A DNA stretch of 64,000 nt, from NCBI GenBank assembly GCA_001466705.2, contig LATX02000212.1:248001-312000 (forward strand). The letters are read 5' to 3'. How positions within the stretch are numbered: the stretch's first letter is position 1; each line of letters starts with the position of its first letter. Below are positions 36,119 through 59,082 of this stretch, in pieces. A program made the position numbers and the translations under genes. The notes beneath the pieces were generated by a model. That model was not told the origin of the DNA. It did no database searches and saw nothing but the letters and a program-made list of their open reading frames with translations. Source of the DNA: Moniliophthora roreri. Lineage: Eukaryota > Basidiomycota > Agaricomycetes > Agaricales > Marasmiaceae.

Positions 36119-39100
36119 ATGCGAGACGTAGAGGAAGACATTCTCAAGATCCAGAACTGGGAAAGTTACCATTGGCCACTGGCCGCTCACCATGCGCGAA
36201 ATGGAAGAAAGGAAGGGGCCTACTCAGTAGTGCTTTTGAAGCATGGAGAGATGCTTTGGATGGCAAATCGAAGAACATCAAATCCTCTGACGCGCCTCAG
36301 GTCCTAGTCTGTCTACTTCATGAGAAATATGACATGCAATCGGAGAAGTTCACGGTCGCCTCTCTCCGAGGATCTGACCGGGAACTCTTGTTACACCTGG
36401 CTTTTCTGGCGAAAGGCGATGATTTTGATTTGCATCTGGGTGAAGCCATCTACGTTGAAGAAGGCTGGCCATTAACTCGGCACCGATTCTATGGTAGCAC
36501 GGGAACGATCTTTTCTGTGACCGACGGGTTTCTTCATCGTGGAGATCAAGACGATGAGGAGGAAGAACGGGAAGGTATGGAAGATCAGGAAGATGGCGAA
36601 ATCAGCGAGGCCGAGTCGGACATTGAGATGGAGGAGGTGGACAGATCGCACTTTCTACTAGAGAAGATAACGACGTTGAATGGGGTCCCACTTACCATGG
36701 ACTGTCCCGAACTGGCCACGCTAAAGGATTGTAAAAGGGAGCTCTGGGGCTATTCCAGTGGTTCTTGCGACTATACTAGATTTGTCATCGGGGGTATTCT
36801 GAAGGAAGGTGACCCAGAGAATGACCTTGACCGCTTCCAGGCGTATAGCGATGTGAGTTCTGGTCATTTACACTTTTATCTTGTTGCTTACACCACGTCT
36901 GACAGGGTGGTTGGCTGACTCAAAGTATGTCATCTTTAGCAAGCATGGGCACCATTTCTGATTCTTGAATCATAAAGCTTGGAGGAGAAAGTCTGTGCTG
37001 ATCACACCAACAGACTCTTCCCGCACCAAGTTTACCCTTCCAACAGATACCGTTGACAAGGCCTACAGGCTTTTGGATACTTCAGACTCAACCTTGCCCA
37101 GCAAAGAAGAGTTGATCGCCTTGGACACAGCTCTTCGAAGCTTGCGCGGCTTATCGTTGATTGAAATCAGAAGTGAAATATCGGCGCGCGTAGCGAGCTG
37201 CTTGCGCGTAGTAATTGCATGGAAAAACGAAAATGTGTTTGTCCATATGCTCCGTGAATGCGGAGATCACATTATCTCTTGGATGAGCGTTCAGTATTTG
37301 GTGAAAGGTTATCGGACGTTCAGATGGCAAAGAGTCGAACATTTGTGCGTACATGTGTTCTCACCACCGTACCTCTTCGTTTTTAACTGTTTTCAAGGTA
37401 TTCCAAAGCTGTTACGAGTGATATTTCCATTCGGCTCCGCAGAGAACTCCTCGCGGAAATGCATGCTGTCGCGACAAACGCAGGAGATGCTGAAGTCATA
37501 GCCTGGTTTAATTCACAGTCTGAAGCATTCGTCGAGAATATTCATGGATTCAGGATCGAGATGGACGAAGTTGATGCTGTCATTTCGGCTGTGAAAGGGC
37601 GAAACGATCCTCTTGAGGTTATCCGCAATATGTAAGATATTTCCTCTTCTTTGAAAAGGTATTTCTTATCTGCTGTAAATTTAGATTGCTACCGAACCTC
37701 CATAAAAAGCAGCCCTCCGACATGAGAATGTGGGCAACGCTTTTTGAGAGTCTTCGTAAAGACTCGTCATTCGATCAAGGACAGCTATATCAGGTCATCA
37801 CAGATTGTATTCAACACCTCTCATCCACTTTCCAGCCTTTCAACCAGAGCGATCTGCACAGCGCCATACAACAGACCGTAGAACATGTTGCCAACTTTAT
37901 CAGTCTATGCATCGCCTATGATTCCTTCGATACGGTTCCCTTTTTCCTTCAACGGTTATGGGATTCCTCGACGAGTGCAGAGTTGGCTGTGCGCATAGGC
38001 TACTTCAATGCGCTTCTACCTCAACTCCATACATGCCTCGACAAAGATGCACCCGAGCTTAATAATTCCTTCGACGAATTCTTTGGGAAGGTCTTCGACC
38101 TTCTTCTCTTCAATCATTCTTCGGAACGTCATGGCAACCTCCAAATTGCGTCCAGATATCTCTATAATCCAGTGGGGCGATTGTCCGAATGGTGAGTTTG
38201 CTTTTCCTCATTTTGATCGCAATCGCCCACTCAGACACTCACTCTTACATAGCTTAAGCCCAGAACGCCTAGAAGAACTAGCCCGCAAGGATGATCACAC
38301 GCTCGAGGACGTAACCAAGTTTGTCCACGTCTACTGTGCTAGCGCTAATTCAGGATCGCGTGCTAGATTGCAGGATATCTTGCAGCTATGCTTGGATGCG
38401 AGGCTTGCCACGTTCAAGCCTTCTGAATCTGATGGATCCAAGGCGTTGAACTTCATCGACCTCTGCTTTGCAACCGATCTCCGTCCCACGATTTCTCGAG
38501 GATTTGAAACGTATTTGAACACATCGGGTTCCAGCCAGTCCAACTACATCCAGTCCCAATTGGTCACTATTCTCAAAGGTCTCCCAGAATTACTCAAAAG
38601 TTACGGACAACCAATGACCGATACATACCTCGACTTCGCAGTAGAGGTGGTCAAGAGATATGTGCGTCATGTACTTGGGGCGAGTCCTTGTGATGAAGTC
38701 ACGCTTCAGGACTGGAACAGCATTGGATGTGGATGTGTTGACTGCCAAATGCTGGTGTCCATGTTGCATGATCCCAAGCCCGGGGCGAAGAATAGCTTTC
38801 GTAGACGTTTCGAGGTCCGGCAGCACCTAGAGACTCAATTAACGCACATGCGATGCTGGGGAGTTTCCTTTGTGGTGGTTGGTGGGAACCCGAAAACAGG
38901 CAAGGATCCTGTCATGAGGGTGTGTGGCTTGCTTTGAACTTTCTAGCCAGAAGATTTACTGAACGTTGTGATGACAGGTCAATATCCCGCCGAAGTTGAC
39001 ACTCTTGCCAGCCTGGTTTAAGAAATTGGAAGAAGCACAGAGATTGCTTGAACTTTTCGGAGATGTTGTGCATCAAAAGCAAGCTCTGGGCGAGGACTAT

Positions 39101-39199
39101 TGGTGGATAGCTGGTATGATGACTGGGAAAAAACGTCCACCACCTCCGTCTTGCGATCCCGGGTCGTCCAAGAAAGCTCGTTTGTCCTATTCAGTTTGA
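36119..39199 (+). CDS. Large family A protein, copy A1
   Basis: Main exons: to 36852, 36906-36924, 36978-37344, 37398-37631, 37685-38191, 38253-38919, 38978-39199. The N terminus is MRDVEEDILKIQNWE (compare MSEAAQDILNIEAWGSY in A3), but joining it to the next segment (LLSSAFEAWRDALDG) needs either a 47-nt intron with a weak donor (GTTACC) or a 1-nt frameshift. Later landmarks are SLRGSDRELLLHLAFLAKG, an acidic run (DDEEEEREGMEDQEDGE), WRRKSVLITPTDSSRTKF, IGCGCVDCQMLV and HMRCWGVSFVV. The end is KKRPPPPSC then KKARLSYSV, a bipartite NLS-like tail. The order and spacing of the N-terminal part recall the region after the catalytic core in large fungal 2OG-Fe(II) oxygenase-like proteins; no HxD iron motif is present. 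Function unknown. Confidence 0.72.
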
Positions 39200-40433
39200 A
39201 GTGTGCTTTTAGATCTCCTCTTGCCCCATTTTATTAGTAGTCGAACATTGATATTTTGTTGAAACGAACCTTTGTGAAGGTTTGAACGTTATCCTTCACC
39301 GAGCGCTAGTTCGGGTACCAATGCCACGTTTTCTGCTAACAGCGATCAAAAGCGCCGACGATATCACTTAGTTGTTCAAGTCGCTCGTCAAGAGGTGTCA
39401 TTTGTTGCGCGAAATGAATATCTTAGTGCTCAGAGAGGTACACAAGGCAGCATCACAAAAAGGTATTTAAGCCTCACCAAAGATTACTCTTCCGTGCTGA
39501 GGGCCTTATCCAGATGTCGACTGATCCCCAAATCATTGGCGATACCCTGTTCTCTGGAATCCAGGATGTGGTTGCACTATTGCCACTGCTAGGCACGGAA
39601 CGTTGTGAACGGCACGTCGGATCTGCCCTCGACAAAGGGTTCCTCTATGCAGCAGCCGCCCTACTCGATATTTGGTAGCCTTGGAATGGTTAAACCGGCC
39701 TTTGGGACGCTCGATATCGTCTATAGTTAGGATCTGGGCGGGTACGGAGCAGAGGTAGAGTTGGGAAACGTTTGGAAGACCAATCTACTGATGATCTCGG
39801 TATGGTTCCTGGGATTGAATATTGAATAGTCAGGCTGGAAGGGTGTGTTGGATGGAAACGGTTCTGGGGATAAGAATGTACGAGAGAGGAAGCCCAATGT
39901 GCGTATTTGGCTTTTAAAATGCTTTCCATTATTGATTGAACACCCGCAGATGTCCCTTCCCTGGAAAATTTTACTTCTAACCTCGGCGTTAACTGTCATC
40001 GTTAGTCTGGTTCCATACACTAATCTCGTCAGGGACGACCTTATCACGGGTATTTCCAGCTCTGCGTTCTCTTGGGTCCTTCCTATGTGTGGGATCGGTT
40101 CAGTCGGCCCTACGGCTTCGAATACATCGCATTGCCAGTTCCGATGAAGATTCGCCGACAGTATAACATCAACGAGGATGAGACAGATGAAAGTGGCCGG
40201 CAGATCCATGTTTCGGAAAAACGGCTTCACAGCCGAGTCATCTCTACAGAAATAACATATCCTGTATGCAGTGCGACTATTCTCAACTCATCGAGCAAAC
40301 TCCTTTCAGATGCGGAGAAGACATCAGAACCTGGTACCTCTGCAACTATGGTTGGCAGATTGTCCAATACCCCAACACTACTTGGGTTGATCGACCTATC
40401 TGCCCGACTAAACATTGATTGAGTTTTGTTCAT
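39200..40433. other. Region with no supported gene
   Basis: 1.2 kb after A1. The + strand at 40030-40430 has an open stretch (YVWDRFSRPYGFEYIALPVP) that may belong to the doubtful gene that follows. A - strand frame at 39727-40230 overlaps it. Neither can be confirmed. Confidence 0.3.
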
Positions 40434-41339
40434 TTGCCGGACGCTCATAGGTATTGGTACGTCTCTCAAGCTTCTGCTCAAAGCTGCGTCTGACAACAGG
40501 ACAGGCTCTTACTTTCCACTCGTCACCACATCGTATGACCTTCGGTACATGGGTTTCCCAACGCCAAATCCTTTTGTTGTTCAGAACGCAGACGGTTTCC
40601 TCGCTGCAGCCACCGCGTGGACTGGACTTCAACGGCTAAAGTTGGATATTATCACTCTGTTATACGCAGTTGTGGCTGACGGTTCTTATGAAGTTGATCG
40701 AAAGCATCTCTGAACCACAATTTGATTCATGGACCTTCATGTATCGTTAAATTTCTTCTCTCGCAACGCCATGGAACCAATCATCTTCTCTTCGACACGT
40801 ACCATACTCCCTAGCATTCGCTCTATGCAGGTCGCTCTTGGCAACCTTGTCGAGAACAGGAGCGAAGGGTTCTTCCGCAGCCAGCACTTCCGTGACACTA
40901 TCCAGCGTTCCCCAATCCTTGCCGCACGGACATTCTCATTGAGCAAAACTGTCTGTATTTGGGTAACAATGCGGAATGTATGATTCTTGAGGAATGCCCT
41001 ATACGTTCAGACGCTATCTTGACATTCGAAGTGCTGCTTTGGCCTTCAATTTATGTTTCGGAAGCTCGCGTCGTCATGGAGTCGGATAGAGCACCTAAGG
41101 TATCGACACGCTGGGAGGAGGTACAGTCTACGGTTAGCGGAGTTGATACAGATAGCCTGAAGGAGATGGTTGTGCTGCCTATTATGGATATTCCTGAAGG
41201 ATCTGGGAGAATCAGGATATGGTTCAATTCCAGCCTGTTTTTCACTGATAATGTATATGTGCGTTGGCGCTCACGTATTCCTAAAGATGCAGAGTTGACG
41301 TCGGAGGGTGCCCAAATCGATACAATTCCTTCACGATAA
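40434..41339 (+). CDS. Possible multi-exon gene of unknown function
   Basis: Two long open segments look protein-like: 40434-40713 (RTGSYFPLVTTSYDLRYMGF, NPFVVQNADGFLAAATAWTG) and 40959-41339 (NNAECMILEECPIRSDAILT, PEGSGRIRIWFNSSLFFTDN, ending GAQIDTIPSR and TAA). Between them 40737-40983 reads LPSIRSMQVALGNLVENRSE. I could not fix the splice sites or the start, and I recognise no domain. It may begin further upstream (about 39949, MSLPWKILLLTSA). It could be a real gene or a decaying one. It lies directly before the 5'-truncated A2. Confidence 0.3.
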
Positions 41340-41843
41340 TAGTAGGATGTGATTGGAATTATACAAAATATGAATATTATAGGGCAGTTATGAGGAGACA
41401 TTGAAACGAGGTTCCCAGCGGCAATCGCCGACAGGAAACGTCGCAGATCAGCATGCTTTTCCTTCGATTTTCAAGTCGAATTCTGTCATCTGGGTCGTTC
41501 CCGGGATAACCACGAATTTGACTACGTTTCTAGGATTGCAGGTGTGCGTAGCTTTGGAATGTGTTCAAAATTGGTTGCTAACTGTGTCGTTGATTGAAAT
41601 GCCTTAGAAGCGGAATGCGAACAGACGTCAACGAACTGTTACCAGAGCGATATGCCCTTTTCAAGATGGGATTTTTCTAGTCCGTGGCTACGCGTGAGTC
41701 TTCTTTTTCTACTGATTCGGGAGACAACTCAATTGCTATTCTGCCCAGATTACGGAGATCAATCGCTAGTCGTGGTTTCGGGGTCCTTCAAATATTAGTA
41801 TATGTTCTGGGTTTCTTGAAGTCTCCACGTCCACGTTACTACT

Positions 41844-44054
41844 ATGTCCGTCTCAAGACTCGACCCACTTATCATGTCGCAGTGCGAAGCCCTGTCTTCT
41901 GTGACCGATGTTGGCCCTTCGCTCGAGAGTGACCGGGACAATGCAGCCAAACTTGTGGATACGCTACTTGAATGGCTGCGTAGCCATTCAGCCAGTTCGG
42001 AGTCGCTTCTAGTGGCACGTCGCATCACCTACCATACTATCGTCTGGAAGAATAAAAGGACGTTCCGTGAAGTTATCCGAGCTTGTCACCCAAATCGTAT
42101 CATCACAACCGTAGGCGTCTTTGGGCTAGAAGAGGGATACAAAAGGTTTGGTTGGAGCGAACCCATAGAGGATTTGTAAGTCAAGAAATTCTCCACTACT
42201 ATTGAACTTCGATTCAAGCCATTTCTCCTTGCAGACTCACTCAAGCAGTCTTGAACGACGTTTCGGCTGTCCGGCGAGGAGACTTGCTCAGCTACATGTT
42301 GCAAGCTGCGGCAAAACAAAAAGACGAAATTGCCATTGCGTGGTGCCTTCAGTACATCGACAGCTTCTTCGAAAACCTTCAGAAAATAGAAATCGACGAT
42401 ATCCAGACGATCACTTACCTGGTTTTTCGTTCTCGAAGAGACTGGATGCTGACTTTATGCACCTAGTGAGTACATCAGTGAGTACATGCTGTGCACAATT
42501 AAGCTCAGTTCCAAACTATCTATCCTCTGAACAGCGTGTTGCCACTTCTTTTTGCAACACAACTCGACAACATGGAGCTGTGGAGAACCTTATTTGCCAA
42601 ACTGAAGATGCAGGGAAGATTTATCCTTAGAGTCGATGATTTCTCTGCAATCACAAATTTCTGTATCCAATTCCTTGCCGATCACTGGGTTCCCTTGCAG
42701 GCCCTTCCGCTTGAGAGGATAGAAGAACCGGTGGGACGAACTGTCGATTTCATACATTTATGTCTTCAGAATAATGCCAAGCATGCGCTTGGTGCATTTT
42801 TCCAGCATTTGTGGAATCACGTCGTTGCGCATCATATTCAAGCCGACAGCGCTCAATACTACAGCCAAATCACGAAAATGGACGGGTTATCTCGCGAGTT
42901 TCCCGGACTCGAGGACATTTTGAAGCCCGTTTTTGGCCATGCATTCCAGTGCTTGCTCCGTGGCTACTTCGTGTCGCATTCGGAAAACGGTTTGATGGAA
43001 CTAGGAGAGGTTATGGATCATCTTTGTGTTGATGATTTGGTTGATTCATTGGAACAGTGGTACGTCGAACAAACGAATACCCTAGCAACTCCGCTCACTA
43101 TCTTGAACAGCATTACACCAGAGATGGCACATGGCTCAGACATGTTGGAGTACATCGCAACACTTGCCAACGATATTTGTGCCCGGATCGGAACTTACGA
43201 GGAAACAGATCGACTGCGACGGATCATTAACAAGTGCCTCAGTAACATAATCGGTGGACTTGACCTTTCTGCGCTCTCCGAAGAGGAACATCCTACATTT
43301 TCTCTCGAATCTTGTGAACTCTTTCGGTCTCTCAACCTACTTTACTTCCTTGGCCGTCATCAGCTAGCTTATCGGGTGCTTGACCGGTGCCTGAGTTGTC
43401 CCGAGATCTATCAGCCTGCGTATATATGTGGCTTGACGGCAATTCTCAAACGCCTTCCATCTTTCCTGCAAACTCACGGCTTGTCTTTGTTAGACGAGCC
43501 GTACGCCTATTTTGCTGGGGAAGTCATCAAGAAGATCATTCAGAATATCCTTGGTCCCAATCCTTGCCCCAAAATTTCACCAGCAGAATGGAAGGCGGTA
43601 GGCTGTGGCTGCAAGGACTGCGAGCAATATTTGGCCCCGTTATTTCCCCGCCAGTTAGGTGAAGAACCAAATGATCAATATAGCGTGAGGATCCGAGTGG
43701 ACTACAGGACAGAGCGTCATCTGAAGGACAGGCTACGGAAGACACGAGTGTGGGGTGTTTCTTTAAGGACAGCTATGGATGAGAATGGGCGATGTACCCT
43801 TCAGGTACAGCGGACTCATGCGACGGAAAACTTGTTGCTGACCCTGTTAATAGGTGGACAGACCGCAACACCTGAATGGCTTCGTCGTGTGGCTTACGCG
43901 CCTTACCGAAGTACAGGAACTTTTGCCGCTTTTAGGTGATGACCGTCAACAGATGAAGGTGGTCGGAAAAGAGTTTGAGTGGCTCATCCGCGGTGGAAAT
44001 TCCATTGACGAACTTGAGTACCGAAAGGTACATCGCAGGCGAAGGCGTGCGTAG
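41844..44054 (+). CDS. Family A protein lacking the N-terminal domain, copy A2
   Basis: Five exons (41844-42175, 42235-42465, 42535-43059, 43111-43804, 43854-44054) give 660 residues in one frame. The start MSVSRLDPLIMSQCEALSSV aligns with the middle of A1, A3 and A4 (their CKILSSPTSDTPIPK region). So about 260-300 N-terminal residues, including the small exon, are absent. The remaining intron positions match the other copies, including the TG|C junction before TPEMAHG. Conserved points are VGCGCKDCEQYLAPLF, KTRVWGVSLR and the basic C terminus RKVHRRRRRA. The upstream box shared by A1, A3 and A4 is not found. It may be a functional shorter paralogue or a 5'-deleted pseudogene; the preserved frame and splice sites favour the former. 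Confidence 0.75.
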
Positions 44055-44458
44055 TGGGATTTGTGTCTCCCGAGCTCTTGTCAGTCGTTCTTGTTTGTTA
44101 TACCTTTGCGATAGTCTAGTCTGTCGCCCAGATGATTTTATTGACATCGGTTGTATACATTGCAGTGGGACGGTTCACACGTCTCCAGCAGTTTCTGTAG
44201 GGTCAAAAGTGTCAGACCAATCTCCCAATGGGGAGAATTTCGGAAACTCACTTAAAACAGTTCAAACTGTTGCTTAACCCATGAATTAATGCTCCTGCGC
44301 CTCTACTGTCAATTCCGGAACATTTCCACCACTGTGATGATCCAATCGTGAGCCGGAAACGGTGATACATGGCAGAAGCGATGACAAGTGCATGCACCCG
44401 AGTAACGGTGAGGTTTGAACTCCAGAGTTCCTTCGACTACAAGGTTGGCACCAATAAT

Positions 44459-44514
44459 CGGTCACCGGTCACCGGCCAACGGTCACCGGCCAACGGTCAC
44501 CGGCCAACGGTCAC
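44459..44514 (+). repeat. Heptamer minisatellite (CGGTCAC / CGGCCAA)
   Basis: Eight 7-bp units without gaps: CGGTCAC twice, then CGGCCAA and CGGTCAC alternating three times, giving a 14-bp period. It lies 276-331 bp upstream of the A3 ATG. Confidence 0.9.
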
Positions 44515-44712
44515 GATGTCACTCGTCAAGTCGATCTGGGCGCCTGACCGAATCTGATACATCTCTACGGTCCACCATGTCCACTTTTTGACTGTCTGCT
44601 CCCTGCTCATAATAGAACTCAGAAATGTGTCTATTCATTGGCGGGTGGGGGTGGATTGGGACTTCAAAGGGAGGTCAAGATTATTCAGTGACACGGGTAG
44701 AAGAGGCTCAAG

Positions 44713-44726
44713 GGTCTCGGGGGTCC
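44713..44726 (+). promoter_or_regulatory. Shared 14-bp upstream box of family A (copy A3)
   Basis: GGTCTCGGGGGTCC, identical to the box before A1, ending 64 bp before the A3 ATG. Confidence 0.65.
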
Positions 44727-44738
44727 TAGCAGGGTCAC

Positions 44739-44747
44739 TATATAAAA
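44739..44747 (+). promoter_or_regulatory. TATA box of A3
   Basis: TATATAAAA lies 43-51 bp before the ATG at 44790 and 12 bp after the shared box, a normal spacing for a core promoter with a short 5' UTR. Confidence 0.6.
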
Positions 44748-44789
44748 CTCCAAACTCGAACACCGGTCGCCCATAAACTCCCCTTGAAA

Positions 44790-47700
44790 ATGTCGGAAGC
44801 AGCACAAGATATTCTAAATATCGAAGCCTGGGGCAGCTACAAGGTTGACGCCTCAGCGCTTCTGGAAGAAGACACGGTTGGGGTTCCTGTGGATAGTATC
44901 AAGGTTTGAACCTTACGTCTGCAAATCTTCTATGCCGCTGAGGCTGATATTGTACTACCCTTTCACAGGTCAGCCTCGCAGATGCCCTTTTGCCTAACGC
45001 TGCCTCAGGAACACCCCCGAGTCATCTAACCCAGCCGAAGAAACTCCACGCAGTTTTCAAGGGCTGGAGAGAAGCTTTGGATAACGGGAATTTAGAGGTA
45101 CCCCACCTCCTCATCAATCTCTTGGACGAGGAATATGACACGTCAGACGTTGATGTCCTCACAGCTTCTTCACTTCGAGGCGGTGACCGCTTTCTGCTGT
45201 CTTGCATCGCGCCGATGGCAAAGGCTCACGCGTTCAATCTACATCTCGGTGAAGTCAGGTATACAGAAGTGGGATGTCCTAAGATAGTGCCCCGAGATAA
45301 GGCAGAGAAGCGCGAGTTGAAAGACAACGAGATGGATGTTGATTTAGACTCGGAGAAGTCCTTCATCGAATTGGAAGAGATGGACTACAATTATGATTTG
45401 GAGGATCAAAGGTTCGAAATTGACAATATCACGGAGATGGACGGGATACCGAAGGTTATCGTGAGCCCTGGACTGGAGTCACGCAGTTACATAGCGAGGG
45501 ACAAGCGTCAGCAGTTGATAGTCAGTGGCGATATCACTGACCGAAAGGCTCAATTCGAATTCGACTTCGACGAATACATGGGGTTCGATGATGCGAGTAT
45601 CCTCTATTTTCGTTTGGTTATACCATGTCTAATTTGTGTGATAAACAGGAGGTCCCTGCACTTATCCAAAGTAAGTTCTATTTTGGTTTCTGGATTCTAA
45701 GAGCAGATAATTACTTCACTTCTGTGCAGCCTGGAGCCGTAAATGTCTTTTGATCTCTCCGGTGAACACAACTCGCATTGAGTTCCGACTTTCAGAGGAT
45801 GGCATTGACTATGCATGCAAGATCTTGTCATCCCCAACTTCGGACACTCCGATTCCGAAAGAATCTAGTTTCGCCAAAGCTGCGCTTGAGTGGCTGAGCA
45901 AGAACCCTCCGAGTTCCAGGAGCTATAGACGTCTCTCACAGTGGAAGCATCTGATAATTTCCTTGTGCACCGCTGCTATTCAATGGAAGGATAGGAAATT
46001 ATTCGTGGATGTTTTGCAGCTTTGCGGCTCAAAACGTGTTGTCACGACCATAGGCGTTGAACCACTCGTGGCTGCTTATGAGGCCCTCCCGTGGAACGAA
46101 ATCAAGGACTGGCGAGTTAAATTTACTTCTCCTCGGAGTTACTGACTGAGATCTGTTGCGAACAGGTACGATCAAGCTGCTACCAGCGATTCGTCTAATG
46201 CTTTGCGCGTCGAATTTGTGAAGAAGATTCTCGATAATGCCGCGCAAGCAAATGACAACGTTGTCACGGAATGGTGCCATTCCAAAATAGAGTCCTTTGT
46301 AGAGAATCTCGATAGTGTGGGTGTGGAAGATGTCAACGGGATCGTGTCTTGGTTGGAAACACGAGACACACCCCTCGATAGTCTACGTGACCTGTTGGTT
46401 ATCCTCTTTTCTCCGCTGGTTGTCGGGAAACTAAACCAAATTGCTTTCAGATTGATACCTCGCCTTTCCGCCCTGCAACTTGGTGACATGAAGGTGTGGA
46501 CCGCGTTATTCGGTGCGTTATATGATGGTACTAGGGTATGCTGGGACAAAGACGCGCTCTTCCTGGTCATCCAAAGTGCTATCCAGCACATGGCCGATAC
46601 ATTGGAACCAACTGCCACGCAACAGGTCCCGTCTTTCGCAGGATTATGTACCCGTTATGACAGTCTGGATGCACTAGACGCTTTCTTCCGTCGCATGTGG
46701 GATGGAGAGTCTCAAGATCCAGAAAAATATGCCCCGGCTTATTCTCTCAATGTCCTGGTTGCGGAACTCGATAGGCTCGCCAAGGTGGATTGTCGAGTGG
46801 AAACGCACCTCAAAACAACCTTTTTCGGCCATGCTTTAGAACGTCTGCTATCTACATATTCCTCGAATAACAAATATGGTATCAAGAGGGCCGCGAAGTA
46901 TTTCGATGATCCGACCGATCTTCTGGTGAAACAGTACGAAAGCGGCTCAAAAAATAAACACTGCCAGTTCTGACGACTTCTTTACCATCTAGCGTGACTC
47001 CAGAATGGCTGAAGAAACTCAGAGAATCGGACCTCGAAGATCTCGTGGACCTGATCCGTGGGTTCCTGGATCAGGCAAAAGCTTCTGATACCGAGTCGGT
47101 TGCCAAGCTTCAACGGCTTACGCATTTGTGTGTGGACGAGAGGCTGGCCAACATGGACTACTCGACCCTTAATAATCCGAACTATAATCATGGGGCCCCA
47201 GGTCGTGATCTCCCTGCTTGACTTCTGTCTAAAAAATGGGTGTTCGGGAGAAGTCTCGCGAGTTTTGGAGAAATGCCTGGAAGTCCCGGAATCTGAAAGT
47301 CGCTCCTATGGGAAGTTTGGTCTATGGATCGCCCTCCTACAATTGCCAAAGTTCCTGGAGGGCCATGCTATCAGTATTTCGTCGGCAGAACCTTCTTCTC
47401 TTTCACCATACGTTCGTTTTGCGGATGAAACTGTGAAGCGGCTTCTACGGGCAGGCTTCCTCGATCACTTTTGCGATGGTAAACCGACGTTGGCGAGATT
47501 TTGCAGTGAAGCGACGCGTAATCCGCTCGTCTCTAGGACAGTAGTTCTAGAAGTTGTGAAGGAGATCATCGGATCTACGGTCTCGGGAGTCTCTCTTACA
47601 GACTTGAAAAACGTCGGTTGTGGATGCTCTGACTGTAACCAATTGTTGGTTCCCATTTTCACCCAGAAACGGGACGTAAAAGTAGGGATCCCTTTGAAGG

Positions 47701-48053
47701 ACAGGGATGCGGTCAGGAAGCATTTCGAGGAGCGCCTCGAAAGGAAACGTGCGTGGGGTGTTACTTGGCAAGCCAGGAAGGGGAAATTACAAGTATGTTG
47801 TTATATTTTCCGCCATGCCTATGTGATCCTATTCTCGCCGCAGATTACAAAGCCAGAAAGCTTGATCGCCCTTTTGAAACAGACTCCAAATGTTAAACAG
47901 CTGATGAAGGTGATTGATGTTCTCGGCCTGCAACAAGAACTTGGTGCAGAGTATGCATGGATCACTCCCAGCACCGACACAGGTCCACAGAAGCGCGTGT
48001 TGGATTCTGACGGTGATGACGACACCGCCAATAAGAAAGCCCGTTTATCCTGA
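44790..48053 (+). CDS. Large family A protein with one frameshift and two GC-AG introns, copy A3
   Basis: Exons: 44790-44903, 44969-45592, 45649-45670, 45730-46111, 46166-46393, 46451-46933, 46993-47792, 47844-48053. The start is MSEAAQDILNIEAWGSYKVD. Landmarks are SLRGGDRFLLSCIAPMAKA, FNLHLGEVRYTE, WSRKCLLISPVNTTRIEF, VGCGCSDCNQLLVPIF, KRAWGVTWQ and KKARLS at the end. Introns after 45592 and 46111 begin GCGAGT instead of GT, while paralogues have GTGAG at the same places. In exon 7 the reading frame shifts by one base at a GGGGCCCC run (47192-47199): the upstream frame ends shortly after, while ISLLDFCLKNG and all that follows need the other frame. So this copy is a recent pseudogene, or the run is a sequence error. 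Function unknown. Confidence 0.75.
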
Positions 48054-48247
48054 ATGCTGTCTTGCTTTGATTTCTTGATCGTAATATCCTACCACCTATC
48101 TTGTACCTGAGATATCACCTGCTAATGTACTGCTATTAGCCTGAAGTCTCCCGGCATAAAGCCCTAGAAATATACATTGATTATTGCAAATTGTACGCGA
48201 GCGAGATGCAGACTGAATACACAAGCGAGAGAAGTGATAGCTCTGCG

Positions 48248-49831
48248 TTACATCACACCAAAGCCTGCCTTCAGCTCCTTCTCCAAATCCGTCATATCTA
48301 ATGCGCCGATCTCATCTGTTTTTCCTGTTGCATCGCTGCTCTTTCCTTCGTCTTTCGGTAAAGCCTTTGCCTCCTTGACACACCTCTCACACATACACTG
48401 CCCGAAACCCCATTCCTGTAACTCTTGCCGTCGAGCCACGACTCCATTGTTTGGGTTCACATAGGTCACCAAAAGCTCTTCTCCGGGCTCGATATCTCTC
48501 TTCGCGACGACCGTGATACGTGACAACGCATTCCGTTGGTCAATGTGGCGAACTGAGACATTTGGCACACAACAGTGGTTGAGGTGCGAGTGAAGAGTGT
48601 ATAGACCGCCGTGAGCTTCCAAGTCTGAGCACACGTGAGTTAGCGTCATCATTGGTTCAGGTTTAGATTTTCCACATACTGAGACTCATGCGACCTAACC
48701 CTCGTAGAAATCCGTGATAGTCAAACAGCTCTGTCTCGATATCAGCTCGAAGCGACTTCTTGTACAGTTTTGCAAGTTTCTTTTGCTCAGCCGAAGATGC
48801 CGGGTTTCGAAAAGCCTGTATGTACAGATCGTACGCTTTCTTCCATCCGGGCTGATTCTTGGCTTCTTCCTCGCTGCAATAACATCCGATTCAGTCGGCA
48901 GGTTTGAAGGCGTGCCTTCGAGTAGACGTATGAGTTGATTCTGTGGAATACTGAATCAACCCACATGTCTACCCGAAGTAAATGTTTAGAGCAAGACAAG
49001 AGCGTACCTTTGACCAAAACAGTATTTTGCTCTGTCCTCCAAACTCATCTGCGCGAGCGAACTATACACTCTCCAATCTTCCTCCAGCAGTTTCCCGCTG
49101 GCATCGAGCTGATTTGCCAGTATAAGTCTACTGGTCAACTGAGCCAGGGCATGTAAAGCCAACCATTCTGATTCCCTCGCCCACTTGAGGAGTGGTACGG
49201 AAGCCGGGTTCTGGGCCGGACATAGCAACGGGTGATGTTTTGCTGAGCGAGCTTGACAGAGACGATTGCAAAAACGAGCGGGACATTCCGAGGACCCAGA
49301 TGGGCAGTTTGTGACGAGAGAGGTGCTAATGGAAGATGTGAAGGGCGTGGTACAATAGCTACAAGCAGCCGATGATGCTTGTAAATCGTAAATCTCCCTG
49401 TATCAAACATTCATTTCTAGTGCAAAATGTGAAGAATATAAAGACTATACATACCATTCCGGAGCAACGACAAACGGATCCTCCCTCCAAATCACCTCTC
49501 CTTCTGCAATTTCCTCTTTCGCCACGAGGCCTTTTCCCTTGTTCTTGTTGAAATACTTGACTTCGACCTTTGTCGACCACTTTTGAACATCCAGGTCACG
49601 AATGACGCGTGAAGATGGGTAGGGTGTCTTTAGCACGGCTGGTTCCGTCGACAGAACAAGGCCTTCGCTCTGCAGGAATTTTCGCGTCCGTTTTTCGCTG
49701 ACGAGCCATTCTGGGTGCGTTTGAAGAAGTAAAGCGTGTATCTTTGGTATTCCAAGAGTTGGATTGGTTGATTTTAAAGACTTGAGGGCCTCTCTAAGGT
49801 CGACATCGGAGGGGGTGATGGTAGAGGTCAT
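48248..49831 (-). CDS. SET5: SET-domain lysine methyltransferase, SET5 type
   Basis: Reverse-strand exons from the ATG at 49831 (MTSTITPSDVDLREALKSLK; a second in-frame ATG lies at 49882) to TAA at 48248-48250. The SET domain opens with GKGLVAKEEIAEGEV and WREDPFVVAPEWEIYD. It is split by an inserted zinc-finger-like region (ACSYC, CPARFCNRLCQARSAKHH). It closes with SHLNHCCVPNVSV (the NHxCxPN motif), EPGEELLVTYVNP and the post-SET cysteines FGQCMCERC. This order is that of yeast Set5 and related SMYD-type enzymes, which methylate histone H4 lysines. First exon 49831-49455; second 49397-49018. Splicing around 48890-49015 is uncertain (a donor GTCAAA is possible). A short acidic/Lys tail follows the SET. 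Confidence 0.88.
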
Positions 49832-50881
49832 GATTATCGATTTGATTTCCTGTTCCAGCAGAAAAACGTATCTATCTCTCATCTATCTCTTTGGCCACCA
49901 TAACGCTCGCCGCCTTTTGACTATGGCTCCCTCGACTAGAAGAGGTCACAGAAAGACATTCTAGCGCAAGGAACGACGCTGTAGGTACGTGATAATGCGT
50001 AAAATCAAGTTGTTCAGCTAGACTAGGCCCTTGACAGTGGCCTACCTTAACATATACTTCGTTATGGGTCGCCATTGGGACCTATACATCGAGTAAGATT
50101 CTCCCGGAATCAAATTATTATGTAGGTTTGCCATATGGATGGTTTTCACGCGGATTGAAGCTAAGCACTATCGCGATGTCGAAGGTCTGGCAAGTCTGGG
50201 TAGCTGAAGAAAGTGGAGTAGGATAGGCTTAGTCCAATGACGCGAAGAAGAAAAGTCAGGAGGTAATGGTTATAGGAAAGGAGGACCGGTGAGGTACATA
50301 TACACTACGATGTGACTGGTTTAGTTCTCTTCTCTGTTACCCGCTGTTGATGCCTTTCTCAGAGATTCTAGTACACGAATTGCTTCAATTTTTCAGCTCT
50401 TACCGTGTTTACCACCAGCATCGAGCTGAATGTTCATGGAACGAAACTATTCACTACGGCATACAGATGGAAGGGTCTGTTTGCGCTGAGACAAAGGTAT
50501 CCGTTCGCACTGCGCGTCCGAGTCCTCCCTGCTCGCTTCCCCTGCTCAAAATTCCGCTCAAAAGCCCCAAGCTCCCAAGCGTGTGCCTTTATCAGGGTCA
50601 AGCTAAACTTCATCATGTTGGCTATGTCCAAAAATAGCCCCATGTTTCCCCGCTCATTATACGGCTGCTCTTAGCATTGGTGTACACAGGAGCATTGAAG
50701 GTCAAAGGACTCCTAGTAGTATATCCTATCGTATTCCAACCATGTATATACATAGAAAAGGGTAGAAGCGGTCTCCCACAGCCACATGGATTACTTCTCA
50801 TCAACCATCAGGTTAATGATGCCAACGTCAAGTGGCGGGAGTGATACCCATCTACGACCGCTACGACCTTGAGGTTCATCT
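49832..50881. other. Intergenic, no gene seen
   Basis: About 1 kb between the SET5 (-) and B2 (+) starts, so it holds two divergent promoters. Frames at 49872-50075 (-) and 50347-50674 (+) have no features and no exon partners. Confidence 0.4.
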
Positions 50882-52887
50882 ATGTCAACCCCAACGTATA
50901 AGAGAATATTTGACCACGCCGAATACCATGCGCAACTCGCCCTATCCCTCAAGGAGTTGGAAGGAGCTCCCAACGACTTGGCCCGGCAAAATAAATACCT
51001 GGAAGAATTGCTTAAACAGCTGAAGACTACTCGGGACAACGTGGAGAAGCTTACAAGTGTTACGAGAAAGGAGACAGAGGACGAGAAGAAGAGCATATCG
51101 AGAACCAAGCGATTCCTCTCCCGCAGGAATTTGAAGGAGAAAGCTAGAGCTCAGCAGGAACAGGAAGAACGGTATGTTTCATTATCCGTCTGCTGTGAAA
51201 TGGCTGTTGTGACATAGCTGACATGGCCATCACAAGAGAGCTATTGGAGGCATTGGAGACTGAGATCAGGGAACGAGACAATATGAACGCACTGCAGGTA
51301 GCCGTAGAGGAAGCTATACGTGTCGTACGTGGTTCATTCGGTAGTTATCGACCAGAATTGACCCAGTCATTATGTAGAAGGATAGCCTGACCGCAAAATG
51401 CACTGCGCTGAACGAAGTAATGGAACAACTTCGGGTACTTTATGACGAGATCTTCGGTGGGGCAACCCCTGGTGTGTCCTTGAATCAGCATTTCTCGCAA
51501 GCGGGCTTATCGTTGCATCGACAGAATTCCCCCGAAACAATGAACTTCAAAATAATGTCAAACTCGCGCAAGAAGCCTGTGATAACATTCAAGCCCTGAT
51601 ATTCAGTCATTCGCAAGCGGAGAACTGCTTAGTTCAGGCCGAAAGAAAGTTGGACGAGTGTTTGGCAAAGCTGCAAACTGCTTTGTCTGCGGCTCCTTCT
51701 AGTAAGTGGCTAATACTGTTCTGGTCGTTGTACTCTAAGTGATTCACGGATGTCCGTAGCAAATGGCGTACCATCGAGAGTGTGAGTTATCACTAATTAT
51801 GCAGGCCATCGTGCGGTACCTAATTTTTCCAGTTTCAACGAGGAAGGTCGCGAAGCACTAGAAGCTTCGTCAGTCGCGGCTTCCGAAGCCAACAAGTTTT
51901 TAGAAGAGGCCAGACTTACGTGTCCGCAGGTAGCGACTTTTGAGCCTATCCGTATAAAAGACCACCCGTAAGTTTCTGTTGGCAATCAGACCGCTGTTCT
52001 CTGACCGATTATGCACACTTTAGCTCACTCCTTGAAAATTACTTCTTCACGCGTATCTCTGCACACGGTGAGTTGACTTGCAATTTTCAGTGCCGGCATT
52101 TCAAACGCAATAGCAGAAACGATACGCAACATTAAGACCGGACTGACGGTCATGAAGAAAGATGTGAGTCTGACTCTAGTATCTATGGCGATGTGCGGAT
52201 GTTTCATGTGATTCGTAGATTCGACGGGAATATGTAGTTGCTGCCCAACGATACAATATCACCGCTTCACACGATCTCAGTGAATCTGCCGAAGTGCTCA
52301 ACCAATGTCGCGAGGAACTCTTCAAACACCGGAGGGAGATAATGGAACAAGTGCTCAATAGTCCACCCACATATAGACATCGAAGTTCATCGAGTATATC
52401 GCACCCTCTACCGCCTCTGCCAGGCCCACCAGGACCGGCGATAGTGGTTCTAGCACCTCCGTCGCTACCTACTCTACATTCGTCTGTACCCCCGCCACCG
52501 CAATTGTCGACGTCGACATCCTCATCCTCATCGTCCCTGTCGCTTTCAGCACGCATACCTCAGAACCTGGACGCTACTCCCCCATTGCCGTATCCATCAT
52601 CATCCCCGTCACTTTCAGCACGCATACCCCAGACGCTAGACACCACTCCCCCATTGCCGTACCCATCATCGCCTCCGTCATTTTCAGCACACACGCCTCA
52701 AAAATTTGACACTACACCCCCATTGCCGTATCCATCATCGTCTCCGTCACTTTTAGCACGCACGTCTCAGAATCTAGATACCAATCCCCCGTTGCCGTAT
52801 CCATCACCGCCTTTACCTAGTGCTGGGGCTCTCCATGACCCACACGACGTGCTGCCACCATCATACGCTTCGACTTGGGATCATTAA
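50882..52887 (+). CDS. Coiled-coil / proline-rich tail protein, family B copy 2 (B2)
   Basis: The start is MSTPTYKRIFDHAEYHAQLA. The N-terminal coiled coil contains KYLEELLKQLKTTRDNVEKL. Later exons give ELLEALETEIRERDNMNALQ, KDSLTAKCTALNEV, YDEIFGGATPG, FPRNNELQNNVKLAQE, EALEASSVAASEANKFLEEA, REYVVAAQRYNITASHDLSE and VLNQCREELFKHRREIMEQV. The C-terminal tail starts at SPPTYRHRSSSS and is Pro/Ser-rich with four 23-residue repeats (see the repeat at 52546). It ends PSYASTWDH. Exon phases match B1 and B3. The first-exon donor is normal (GTATGT). No catalytic domain is visible. Inner borders near 51700-52150 are approximate. Confidence 0.72.
52546..52821 (+). repeat. Four in-frame 69-bp repeats in the B2 tail
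   Basis: Copies begin at 52546, 52615, 52684 and 52753, exactly 69 bp (23 codons) apart. Each encodes a variant of SARIPQNLDATPPLPYPSSS. Copies differ at several bases, so the expansion is not very recent, and the frame is kept. Confidence 0.88.
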
Positions 52888-53325
52888 CGCGAGACGAAGC
52901 TTACACCTTTGACTGTAGGTGAAACCCGTAATCCCCCTTGCCGCTGCTTGGGAAACATCGGCGAGTACTCGGTGCGTACTTGTTGGGTCAGAAAGGCGGT
53001 GTTTAGATGGGTAGACACGAGGCATTCTTGGTATTTATTGTACATTGTATCGATAGCTGTCAGACGTGTGGAAACAATCAAATCTTATTTTATGCGCTCA
53101 TTTAACGCTCGTCTTTCTTTATCTTTGCATGAAGCTTCCCGGATGCACCTGGCAGTGGAAAGGTTCTAGAATTTGAAATTTGCCACGCGGCGGTTTGCTC
53201 AGTCGTCGACGACTTGGACTCCGGACAAGCATTATCCGGATCCGCTTGTTCTAGTGCAGCGCCCTTACGCTCATTCATATGATATCCATCTCGACCTGTC
53301 AACCTCTCTCTTCCCATCTGCTTTC

Positions 53326-54793
53326 ATGTCAGCCTCGACTGCCCAGCTGATCCTTGAAAACGCTGAATACCATTCGCGATTGACCCAATACTACGACAGC
53401 CTGCAGAATGCAATTTCGGACTTGCGGCAGCAAGTTGAACTGCTGGAAGGGCTTGAGAAGGAACTTGAGACCGTGAAGGCAAAGGTGGAGAAATTGGCTA
53501 CAAGGACGAGATTCGAGCGGAAGAATCATGAGAAGACGAGGGACTCGACGGCGAGAAGATTTGCTGCGAGTATGATGGAAAACTCCAAGGTGAAATACGA
53601 GCTGAAGAAGGAGAAAGAAGAGCGGTGCGTCCTACCGCCGCATTAGGACCTCCGTGCAAAACTCACTGGGGCATTTCAGGGAATACGTAGAGGCCTTGGA
53701 GAGGGAGGTGAAGGAGAGAGTCAACTTGGAAAGGATCGAGACTGAGATATTGAAAGCGCGCATAGCGGTGTGTTGCGCCACAGTGAACGTCTTCCAATGA
53801 CTAATATCCTTGCAGGAAGTCGAGCTGAATGAGAAAACGAATGAAATAAACAATGTTAAGAGGGAGCTGCGATCTCTCTACGAACGAATTTTCGATGGTC
53901 CAACTCCAGGTGCGTTTATGGTGGACGTCCTTTGTAGCATTCGTCTCACAAATTGCAGATTTTCCAAGAGACGACGAGCTCAAAGACGAGCTCAAATTTG
54001 CTCAAGCCACGCATCGCCAGATTCAGGGTCAGGTTGACAATCATTTGCAAGTTGCCGAGTTACTACAGCAAGCCTGGCGAGAATTGTACCACTGCTCAGA
54101 GGCATTACACACGGCTCTGGAAAATTCAACCCACAGTACGCTGCCCCTCAGAGACATCCTACCGATTCAGACTAACGAGAAACATTGTTCAGAGACTGGT
54201 GGGGGGCGGTGAGCTACTTTCCCGTGCTCATTTGCTGTCATGTTTGACACAGGAAAGGTTAACGACTGCAGAGGGTCGAAAAGCCCTCGAGAAAGCGGTA
54301 TCTAATGCCTCTGAAGCTCAGAAGCTCGTCAGTCAAGCCCAAAGTCTCTCTCCCGACGAAACTTACGTAGGAGACATACACGTTCGGAACAATTCGTAAG
54401 TCTTCTGCTCTCGTGCCTCTATGATTAAGGCTAATATTGCACTGCAGACACCTGTTTACAGAGGCAGTCGCTCTGCGTATGGATGCTTATAGTGCGTCTC
54501 TTGCCTGACTTGTTTTTCGTTGCACTTAACGTCGTTTGCACACATGTATTAGAACGTGCTAAGGCGAACAGGGAAGAGCTCCAGACTATTCAGCAGAGGG
54601 TGATCTTACTCCGTTATCTCTCGTTGACCAATACCTAATGATCTGATGTCAGGTAAAGGAGGAACGCCGTGCTGCGAATTCGCGAGCCAAGCAGGTGGCC
54701 GACGATTTGATAGAGGCAGCTGAAGTGATTTCTCAATGCCAAGAGGCTCTCATGGAGCATCGAAGGGTGACAGCTGAACGAGTGGTTGAATAG
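53326..54793 (+). CDS. Family B copy 3 (B3), tail lost by frameshift
   Basis: The start is MSASTAQLILENAEYHSRLT. Coiled coil: LEKELETVKAKVEKLATRT and STARRFAAS. Then EYVEALEREVKERVNLERIE, EVELNEKTNEINNVKRELRS, YERIFDGPTPG, FPRDDELKDELKFAQATHRQ, EGRKALEKAVSNASEAQKLV and LIEAAEVISQCQEALMEHRR. The frame stops at TAG 54791-54793. In the +1 frame the text goes on as SPPSYQRQAETSRTSVDPPP to a TAG at 54924-54926, matching the SPPTYRHRS junction of B2, so a single extra base near 54783-54787 separates the tail. The coiled-coil part is otherwise intact. It lies head to tail with B2, 440 bp apart, as a tandem duplicate. Confidence 0.72.
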
Positions 54794-54926
54794 TCCGCCG
54801 TCGTATCAACGTCAAGCCGAGACCAGCAGGACGAGCGTAGACCCACCGCCGAATCCGCAAAATCATGATCTTCCGCCGTCTTATACTGGGACTGACGCTG
54901 GGAACCCCATAGTTGCTGCCACATAG
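54794..54926 (+). pseudogene. Out-of-frame remnant of the B3 proline-rich tail
   Basis: In the frame one base ahead of B3, the sequence reads SPPSYQRQAETSRTSVDPPP and LPPSYTGTDAGNP without stops up to the TAG at 54924-54926. PPSY motifs and Pro/Ser content match the tails of B1 and B2. Confidence 0.65.
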
Positions 54927-55811
54927 GGGGCTCCGGTATCCTTGAGAGCGAGTAGCTTCCAAGTGCCCAAAAGACGCGCCGGTAGTTACCAGCATGACGA
55001 AAGAATCATCTACTGTCGATCAAGGACACGAGGTGGTACAGCTTCCTGGTAAAGTCAGGGTTCACTTGCAATTCCGCAAAACCGAATTCTATCTACGGAT
55101 CAATCATATCTTGCTGGGCATCCACCTGTAGTTCCGGATATAAAAAGCTGTCGTAAAATGGATCGGTGGCTCTGATACTTAGATAGTGTCAGGCGGCGCC
55201 AAAGGATATCCACGCCGTACTCGCCACCTTCCGTTACTTTCATTGCAGGTTAAACTGGTACACCCAGAACATGTATTTGAACATATCAGAGCGTAGCTAG
55301 GATGTCAACTGCACGAGTAAATTTTGACTGGTAGAGGACATGGTTTGGTCACGGTCCACCGACGTCCTTGATGCTGACCTTTGAGATAGGACATCTCATA
55401 CGGTGCCGCTAGAAACTCTCAGATATCATCTCCATCGTTTTTTTTTGGGTCTGCAAGCACTAGATGCTTCTTTCATTGATCGGTGTAGTGGGCGTAACTG
55501 AGCGAAGGCACGATACGCGAGTTCAACTCTCGCGCCGAACGATTATTATATATGTACTGCTCAATTATAAGTAACGCGAGTCACGAATGTGTTCAGGTTT
55601 AGCCTCAAAACTAGATAATTGTGGACATCCGTGTTGTATGTACCGTGAAGACTATGTTGAAGATGTGGGCCAAATTCCCGTAGTACTAAGCTAGTAAAAT
55701 TAGCAAGAATTCTGTATGTGGGCTGATCCAAGAAGAAAGACAGGCTCGACGAGTCACCGAAAGGCGAGTAATCAGGTTCTCCAGTTCGTTGAGCTTGTAG
55801 AAAAACTACGT
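54927..55811. other. Intergenic, convergent B3 / A4
   Basis: Contains a T run near 55439-55446 and the tRNA-like element at 55478-55541. No protein gene is seen. Confidence 0.4.
55478..55541 (+). other. tRNA-like sequence (possible tRNA relic or Pol III element)
   Basis: CGGTGTAGTGG resembles an internal A box (TGGCNNAGTGG), and GAGTTCAACTC resembles a B box. GCGAG-TTCAACT-CTCGC forms a 5-bp T-arm. The 5' GATCGG can pair with the 3' CCGAAC except for one A-A mismatch. The segment is about 8 nt too short for a full cloverleaf, and I could not fold an anticodon arm, so I do not call a functional tRNA. Confidence 0.35.
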
Positions 55812-58800
55812 TCAAGCTGTTCGGGCTCTTTTATTGGCAACATCACCATCAACATCTATTGGACGCTTCTGGCCCGCATTGGCATTTGATATAGCCTCGG
55901 TCATCCGCGCATACGCTGCGCTTAATGCTTGCGGCAAGCCAAGAGCCTCTACCATTTTCTTCGCTTCCTGGATACTTGGAAGCCATTGTTGCAGGCTTAT
56001 AAGCCCTGACGGCCTAGAAATCTAGCAGCAGACAAGACATTTCAGGTGGTGCACAAAACAGAAATTCGACCAGCATACCTGCAATTTGCCTCGCTTGAGT
56101 TGCCAAGTAACACCCCATGAACGTGTCCTCTCCAGGCGTTCTTCAAAATGCTTTTTGGCTGCATCTCTGCCCTTTACAGAGATCCCCACCTTTGGTCCCC
56201 GATTCTGAGTGAAGACAGGAACCAGGAATCGATCGCAATCAGAGCATCCACAACCAACTCCCTTCAAATCTTGAGGAGAGATTCCCAGATTCGGCCCGAT
56301 GTTTGCGATCCTATTTTGCACGGCCTGCTGCAACTCTGTCCTGGTGGTACTGGAGAATAGCGGATTGCGTGCGACTTCGCCACACAGATCTGGCGTCAAT
56401 CCTTCCGGTCGACTGAGAATCTTTTTGACTGTCTCGTCCGCAAAATGAATATACGGAGCAATACGACTAACGGATGCTTCTGCTGAAGAGATTTGGATTC
56501 CATGTCGCTCCAGAAAACTTGGCAAGGCTCGGACGGCATTGTATAAACCATGCGTTGCATACTCGGGCCTTTTAGATTCCGGTGCATTCAAGCAGTTCTC
56601 CAGAACTCGAGGAACAACATCCGGATATCCAGCCTTTATACAGAGATCAAGCAGGGCGATTACTATCGAGTTCTGGGAGGGCCTCTCCTTGGTAAGGGAA
56701 GAGTAATCCGTGCTGGCTATCCTCTCTTCCAAGCACAATCGATGAATGTTTTGAAGCTTAGCTGTCAAAACATGCCCAGAAGGTTGTGCTTGACCAATGT
56801 ATGAATGAATGAGATTCATGAGATCATTGAGCGCCAGTGAACAATACTTTGTTTTAGACGCCACCTTCACCCGTTCAGGAGTCACGCTTCATGGGAAGAA
56901 AGGTCATTATGCTTTCGGCTTTCACTGAAGCGCACGAGAGGATACGTACCATTTGAGCAAAATTTCGACGGGATCGTCCAGATACTGGGCAGCCTTTTTG
57001 AGACTAGACTTCTTGTTTGCTGAGTAGTCGGAAAGGAGATGCTCAAAAGCCTGGCCGAAAAAGACCCTTGTAAGGAACTCCTTCATCCGAGGGTCCTTCT
57101 CAGCGAGCCCGTCAAATCCAGGAATGAGAGTAGTATTGAGCTGATAGACGAAGTCGAGCCTGCTGTTTTGACGAGAGCCTTCGTCCCACATACGACGGAA
57201 GACGGAGTCTAGGGCAGCCATAACGTCGTAGCGGGCGCACAGCTCCACAAGGGAGACCACGTGGGACCCCAAGGGATCTACGGTATCCGCCATGCGTTGT
57301 AGAGTATCCTGAATAACTGAGAGTAATTCAGCTTTGTTGAAGCCGGAACCATCTGGGCCATCATGTATTCGACTAAATAATGCTGTCCACACTTTCATGT
57401 CATCAGATTGTTGAACGGAGAGACGAGGCATTAACCTATGCATCCAATAAGGCCAGAATCCCAACGGCAAACAAAGAAAGCTTACCGATCACGTAGAATA
57501 TGAACAGGATTACTCTGGGATCTCAACCAGGATACGACAGCCTCGATGTCATCAACTTCTACTTTTCCAAGATTGTCAATAAAAGTAGCTATTCTCGAGT
57601 TACCCCACGCAATGATATTATCATCGGTGGTACCTGCCAGAATCTGCTTCACCAACTCATACCGAAAGCGAATGCTCAAGTCGTTGGTCACGGCCTGATC
57701 ATACCTGCAGATTGTTGAGTACATCAACAATTACCAAGAGCTCGGCCGGGAATCTCACCAGTTATTAATTTCGCTCCACTGGAAGACTTGACAACCAGCT
57801 ACCAAAGGTTCGACCCCGACTATCGTTCCGATCATCTTCCTTTCGCCGCAAAATCGAAGGACGTCGGCGAATAACTTTTCGTCACTCCACTGAATGGCAC
57901 AATTACACAAGACACTTGTAAGGCGCTTCAACTTGAAAGTATCTCCCCAGGGCAAATTCTTGCTAAGCCATTTGATGGCTAAATTGGCAATCTCTGATTC
58001 TTGTGCAGTAGGCATAGTCGAGCGTGAAATGGATAGGAGGGTGCAAGCGTACGCGACGACTTCGGTCGATGGCGAGAATTCAACTTCATCCGTATCGTTG
58101 GGAGAGATCAATAGACATCTACTACTCCACGCTACATGAGAGTTGCCATCAATCACTGGCTCAGAGACTCAAAAACTTAAGGTCTTACTTTGATTGAGTA
58201 CATGCAATCTCTGTTCAAGTACGACAATGAGTAAACAAATCTGAATACGGCATACTATCGAAAGGAACTCACGTCGTATGGCTCAATGTAGTCGTCGAAT
58301 TCGAATCGAGGTTTGCGGTCGGTAACGTCTCCATTAATAATAAGTCGACGACGCGCATCACCTGTCCTGATCTCGTACTCCCTCAATTCAGAACTCGTCA
58401 TTTTCAAAGGAAAACCATTCATCTTTGTGACATTGTCGACAGAGAAGTCTTGGTCGTTCATGTCGAGGTCATAGTCCATCTCCTCTAGTTCGACGAAGGA
58501 CTCCTCGGAACGACTGTCATCGTCTGAATCAACATCCATCTCGTTCTCTTTGTGTTTTCGGGTGTCCGAGTTGTTTCGAGGAGCCGTTTTGGGGTAACCC
58601 GACTCCATATACTTCGCTTCACCGAAATGGAGGTTGAACCCGTACGCCTTGGCCACAGGCGCAATCCGACACAACAAGATGCGGTCTATGCCTTTTAGCA
58701 AGGACACATTGAGATCTTCGACCTCAGCATCGCCATAATCTTCATTCAATAAGCAGATGAGAAGATGGGGCACCTTTTCTTCTTTATCATCCAAAGCCCG

Positions 58801-59082
58801 CCTCCAGACCTTGAACGCTCGATGAAGCTTCTCCAGCTGAGGTAGACGGTTCGGATCCACTTCAGAATCAAGTTTGACCGAAAGAGCATCCGAAAGGCCC
58901 TCCTGTGGTACCATTATTCAACTCAGTGGCGTCAAGGAAAAAAGTCGCGTTCATACCTTGATGCCGGCCACTGAGGACCCTTCCTCGATGGTTTTGTCGC
59001 TCTCGTCCGAAATTGCGGAAGTAGCAACTTGATAGCTCTCCCAATCCTCAATACTTGAAAGCACTTGTGCCAATTCCGCCAT
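55812..59082 (-). CDS. Large family A protein, intact copy A4
   Basis: Eight exons (59082-58957, 58902-58273, 58210-58189, 58131-57759, 57704-57486, 57435-56950, 56886-56079, 56021-55812) join in one frame to 957 residues; all junctions are GT-AG. The start is MAELAQVLSSIEDWESYQVA. Landmarks: KVPHLLICLLNEDYGDAEVE, LLKGIDRILLCRIAPVAKA, FNLHFGEAKYMESGYP, an acidic stretch (DVDSDDDSRSEESF), SSRCLLISPNDTDEVEF, VGCGCSDCDRFLVPVF, RSWGVTWQ, and the tail GQKRPIDVDGD with NKRARTA, NLS-like. The CGCxDC cysteines could bind a metal. It is the reference copy of the family, and the only one here with a complete N-terminal domain, clear start and no disruption. Function unknown; the possible 2OG-oxygenase relation is unproven. 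Confidence 0.85.

Follow-up and report, generated by a model that had tools for sequence, protein, structure and literature searches.

Pseudo-enzymes commonly retain their dead domain. Vaccinia C16 has a PHD2-like fold without conservation of key cofactor residues, and its N-terminal domain reportedly binds PHD2 (PMC9674614). The window analysed in the present study is a stretch of 64,000 nucleotides of Moniliophthora roreri DNA (C111:248001-312000), and the own-genome searches covered the 59.4-Mb assembly. This stretch had been predicted to contain an array of four copies of a large protein family, three on the (+) strand and one on the (-) strand, and the array was borne out by a genome-wide protein search, six-frame reading and homology-guided splice models, which placed four paralogues at the predicted positions and on the predicted strands. 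In our view, the array is probably a local, lineage-specific expansion of an oxygenase-derived mushroom family without its catalytic head, the products of which would be non-catalytic nuclear scaffolds. Sequence comparisons and structure models support three parts of this view, namely that relatives appear to have lost the iron and 2-oxoglutarate (2OG) ligands while keeping the fold, that the lineage leading to the window copies apparently lost the whole jelly-roll before the split between M. roreri and M. perniciosa, and that an alpha/beta domain, an alpha-solenoid, a Cys3(His) segment and a putative bipartite nuclear signal seem to have been retained with signs of purifying selection. The four copies, and a fifth found elsewhere in the genome, are the following.

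36119..39199, (+) strand: copy 1 (A1); uncertain start exon 36119-36164, body exons 36211-36852, 36906-36924, 36978-37344, 37398-37631, 37685-38191, 38253-38919 and 38978-39199; GCGCVDC at 38725-38745
41844..44054, (+) strand: copy 2 (A2), start uncertain; exons 41844-42175, 42235-42465, 42535-43059, 43111-43804 and 43854-44054; GCGCKDC at 43601-43621 (+); tail RRRRR
44790..48053, (+) strand: copy 3 (A3); exons 44790-44903, 44969-45596, 45730-46111, 46166-46393, 46451-46933, 46993-47204, 47251-47792 and 47844-48053; GCGCSDC at 47616-47636
55812..59082, (-) strand: copy 4 (A4), a 959-amino-acid model; exons 59082-58957, 58902-58273, 58159-57759, 57704-57486, 57435-56950, 56886-56079 and 56021-55812; GCGCSDC at 56255-56235
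C1:2844238-2846849, (-) strand: fifth copy, from the whole-genome search with copy 4

The models of copies 1 to 4 comprise 847, 603, 930 and 959 codons, respectively. Four intron positions match across all five copies, the one on C1 included, with the reservation that homology-guided models are biased toward matching intron places. In copy 1 the start motif is present, but joining it to the body requires an intron of 46 bases whose donor is poor, so that the N-terminal junction is uncertain; the copy-4-guided model departs at the mini-exon 36906-36924, and the two models of this copy differ by 9 bases in the last donor. Copy 2 is missing the N-terminal exons, and the splice model of copy 3 contains a single reading-frame break near 47205-47250. 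The least sure junction of copy 4 is the second intron, with 113 bases and a GAG acceptor. An additional mini-exon between exons 2 and 3 of this copy was discarded because it runs into a stop.

The whole-genome search with copy 4 yielded 24 matches, 18 of them in the array, 5 in the fifth copy and 1, which was weak, on C73. This last relative (C73:560959-561141; L032, L034) apparently consists of two partial copies and has a basic tail followed by EVIDLTLDSDSE. Among the window copies, pairwise identity is 26-48%, and with the fifth copy it is 28-35%. Ordered landmarks had been predicted to run through the whole array, and this holds for GCGCxDC, WGV and a basic tail, which are common to all four copies and have their equivalents in the fifth (GCGCHNC, WGG and KKAR). 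It does not hold for the remainder. Copies 1, 3, 4 and the fifth copy have in common the alpha/beta part with LxGxDR, a run of acidic residues and LLI(S/T)P as a strand, but copy 2 has neither the start motif nor LL(K/R)GxDR, and is also without the acidic run and the CLLISP strand. A degenerate DNA pattern for GCGCxDC matched 8 times in the 59.4 Mb, with 4 matches in the window, and the reversed-pattern control matched once. The other four matches (L001-L004), which are on other contigs and lie between stops in the frames read, were taken as chance.

The original prediction had suggested that the N-terminal part may derive from large fungal 2OG-Fe(II) oxygenase-like proteins with loss of the catalytic core. 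This descent was upheld by homology over nearly the whole chain between two relatives, P0016 (Mycena amicta) and P0009 (Hymenopellis radicata), and the missing part is the N-terminal jelly-roll. Residues 20-1079 of P0016 align with residues 34-1111 of P0009 at 25% identity (E 3e-56), and therefore head and body belong to one family. Full-length relatives carry an N-terminal PNPCL...GLPL segment and the jelly-roll, as does the fifth copy, whereas both are absent from the window copies, along with the Fe(II) triad H-x-D...H and the 2OG-binding Arg. There is no room for a jelly-roll in copies 3 and 4, in which short introns occupy its place, and none was found in copies 1 and 2, although copy 2 is too short to inform on its past presence.

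58903..58956, (-) strand: intron of 54 bases in copy 4; close to this position, relatives have a jelly-roll of about 190 residues
44904-44968, (+) strand: 65-base intron of copy 3 at the corresponding place

P0001 of M. perniciosa, the orthologue of copy 4 (77% identical over 65% of the query), has the same architecture as copies 3 and 4, with exon 1 joined to the body without the domain. A tree of 18 proteins groups the window copies with P0001 in a single clade (100/100), within which P0001 is sister to copy 4 (100/100), and places the fifth copy as sister to P0005 of Paramarasmius palmivorus (100/99); the root of this tree is the midpoint, and copy 2 and P0016 are on long branches. The simplest reading is that the jelly-roll was lost once, in the ancestor of the clade of window copies and P0001, before the two Moniliophthora species split.

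Among longer homologues, the iron site looks intact in a full-length paralogue on C89 (H-V-D...H...R), but at least one of the four ligand residues was lost in the fifth copy, P0009 and 10 other relatives. In the fifth copy the ligand places read N, A, Q and V, and a TAA lies within the dead domain. The C89 locus is as follows.

C89:520276-523700 (L043-L045): full-length paralogue with intact H-V-D...H...R and the tail KRKIMEVIDLT
C89:517948-518264 (L053, L058): degenerate partial copy beside this paralogue

Among the matches listed in three protein searches, relatives amounted to at least 16 distinct proteins, 3 of which are M. roreri's own. These public entries correspond to copy 3 (P0002 and P0003) and to the fifth copy (P0004), and all are named ‘2og-fe oxygenase’. 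No oxygenase domain was found in P0002 and P0003, and P0004 begins within a dead one. The database name should not be applied to these proteins. The jelly-roll of P0016 is intact, and its PF13640 match (E 1.2e-4) is below the cut-off, which was reached by none of the 17 family proteins scanned against Pfam. Copy 4, P0004 and two pieces of the fifth copy gave no Pfam family at E <= 10, and P0001-P0003 gave unrelated sub-cut-off rows alone. When the genome was searched with P0013 (Mycena), 6 of 13 matches fell in the array (best E 1.2e-12), and P0016 did not reach the array at E <= 0.01. Searches of solved-structure sequences gave no match for alignment A1 or P0007, and no publication on the family was found among the literature matches listed, the coverage of which was partial.

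P0016 also finds oxygenase-domain relatives on C75, C96 (two places), C125, C144 and C100 (L049-L052, L054, L057, L061). By eye, those on C75 and C96 keep the H-x-D...H...R pattern, and those on C144 and C100 look incomplete. A PF13640 search of the genome gave four loci, on C104, C88, C12 and C150. Those on C104 (L039) and C88 (L040) were assigned to a more distant 2OG oxygenase, which P0016 matches at E 2.9e-4, and those on C12 and C150 were read and then set aside. The gene on C104 and C88 lies within a 1946-base stretch that is 99.3% identical on both contigs.

The splice models are free of stops by construction, and the weight therefore rests on two points: few introns are needed, most of them at positions that the copies share, and single open frames are long (309 amino acids in copy 1 and 467 in copy 2). 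For copies 3 and 4, the sole measurable pair, the non-synonymous (dN) and synonymous (dS) divergences were 0.41 and 1.81, giving a dN/dS of about 0.23. In the remaining 9 of the 10 pairs, the fifth copy included, the proportion of synonymous differences (pS) was saturated at 0.757-0.829 and that of non-synonymous differences (pN) was 0.445-0.515. We read this as suggesting that the body has been under purifying selection for most of its history. Weighing against this view of a maintained array are the broken frame in copy 3, the truncated state of copy 2 and the uncertain beginning of copy 1. Together with the TAA in the dead domain of the fifth copy and the degenerate partial copy (L053) adjoining the C89 paralogue, these defects would suit decaying relics without present function, a dead oxygenase having been duplicated and now falling apart. 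Such decay appears rather improbable to us, given that copies 1 and 2 have long open exons despite being only 26-31% identical to the others, that dN/dS is low for copies 3 and 4, that M. perniciosa has kept copy 4 (77% identity, 65% of its length covered), and that the nuclear signal and the Cys3...His segment are retained. The copies had been predicted to differ in integrity as a result of rapid turnover. They do differ in integrity, and turnover fits the copy number and divergence better than general decay because the bodies are open over long exons with a dN/dS of about 0.23.

In the model of copy 3 (mean predicted local distance difference test score, pLDDT, 67.4), a series of helices separates two small alpha/beta domains, the second of which is C-terminal, and the model of P0009 (pLDDT 79.7) has an equivalent arrangement of the body after the dead head. 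The alpha/beta domain and the helical solenoid are assigned to copies 1, 3 and 4 and the solenoid alone to copy 2, structures having been modelled for copy 3 and P0009. Foldseek and VIA gave helical-repeat matches alone for copy 3 and barely covered its alpha/beta and C-terminal domains.

Of 18 rows, 15 have the pattern C-x(1-3)-C-x2-C close to the C terminus, among them all four window copies; of the rows without it, P0001 and P0008 end before the place and P0006 has a gene model without the segment. A downstream His, present in 14 of these 15 rows, is a candidate fourth metal ligand. As to possible zinc binding, the observation is this spacing of Cys and His. The conservation of cysteines in wider homologues, on which the predicted metal site hinged, extends to these rows but not to the intact-looking C89 paralogue, where the middle Cys reads Asp. 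The putative metal site is therefore not universal. It could be argued that the proteins are still enzymes that carry out a different reaction by means of the alpha/beta domain or the Cys3(His) site, since conservation is good in that domain and in the C-terminal segment, and neither was matched to a fold. We consider this very unlikely, as the cysteine spacing looks structural and no scanned family protein reaches the Pfam cut-off.

Of 16 rows counted, 12 contain a classical bipartite nuclear signal within their final 60 residues, against a mean of 0.04 and a maximum of 1 after shuffling; P0001 and P0008 had been dropped as C-terminally incomplete, and the tails on C73 and C89, which gave no match, had been left out. 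Copies 1, 3 and 4 carry this signal, and copy 2 has RRRRR instead. The nuclear location proposed for the family is thus supported as a prediction from sequence. For the N-terminal VLDI/VIDL motif, a SUMO-binding reading was weak (7 of 16 rows versus a shuffled mean of 1.8 and a maximum of 5).

Apparent clusters exist in three genera: the four copies described here, P0005 and P0006 of Paramarasmius palmivorus (equal-sized contigs of 160,593 and near locus numbers), and P0007, P0009 and P0010 of Hymenopellis radicata (equal-sized contigs of 121,521). Such clusters of diverged, lineage-specific nuclear scaffolds, like the long branches of the tree, would be expected of a conflict or self-recognition system that turns over fast against a changing partner, such as mobile elements, viruses or incompatible nuclei. 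This seems unlikely, although less so than a new enzymatic activity, because no toxin, nuclease or immune domain was found among 20 unspliced open reading frames (ORFs) of the window scanned against Pfam, and selection on copies 3 and 4 was purifying rather than diversifying.

Other features of the window include the following.

48248-49882, (-) strand: ORFs between copies 3 and 4, presumably for a SET-domain protein
52459-52803, (+) strand: four overlapping matches in a 69-base register, in a Pro/Ser-rich ORF
32172-34709: direct duplication at a distance of about 2.03 kb, in two stretches of 79% and 82% identity
14134-15773, (+) strand: amino acid permease (PF13520; Pfam scan)
29053-30630, (-) strand: Na/H exchanger (PF00999; Pfam scan)
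63412-63873, (-) strand: helix-loop-helix protein (PF00010; Pfam scan)

If the array indeed encodes non-catalytic nuclear scaffolds, the ancestor would have been a large nuclear 2OG-Fe(II) oxygenase that recognised a partner or substrate. The present products may bind this same partner or substrate through the solenoid and the C-terminal domain, and could act as adaptors or compete with the intact-looking C89 paralogue. More tentatively, the head may have been excised and the substrate-binding body with its nuclear signal multiplied and diversified in order to compete with or retarget the C89 paralogue, which would represent a route from oxygenase to regulator. One genome contains three stages: on C89 an oxygenase that looks intact, on C1 a dead version that still has the domain sequence, and in the array domain-less bodies that are apparently kept by selection. 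These stages separate catalysis from binding and, through the non-catalytic part, make it possible to test what this large, undescribed family of fungal oxygenases does.

The window copies differ from the 2OG-Fe(II) oxygenase superfamily (PF13640; prolyl 4-hydroxylase, PHD2 type) in being without the jelly-roll. The N-terminal domain of vaccinia C16 (8ag3) can be likened in kind to P0009 only, with no descent implied, the window copies being without this domain; by analogy, C16 would provide a precedent for a dead PHD2-like fold. The array would represent a pseudo-enzyme lineage that later threw out its dead domain.
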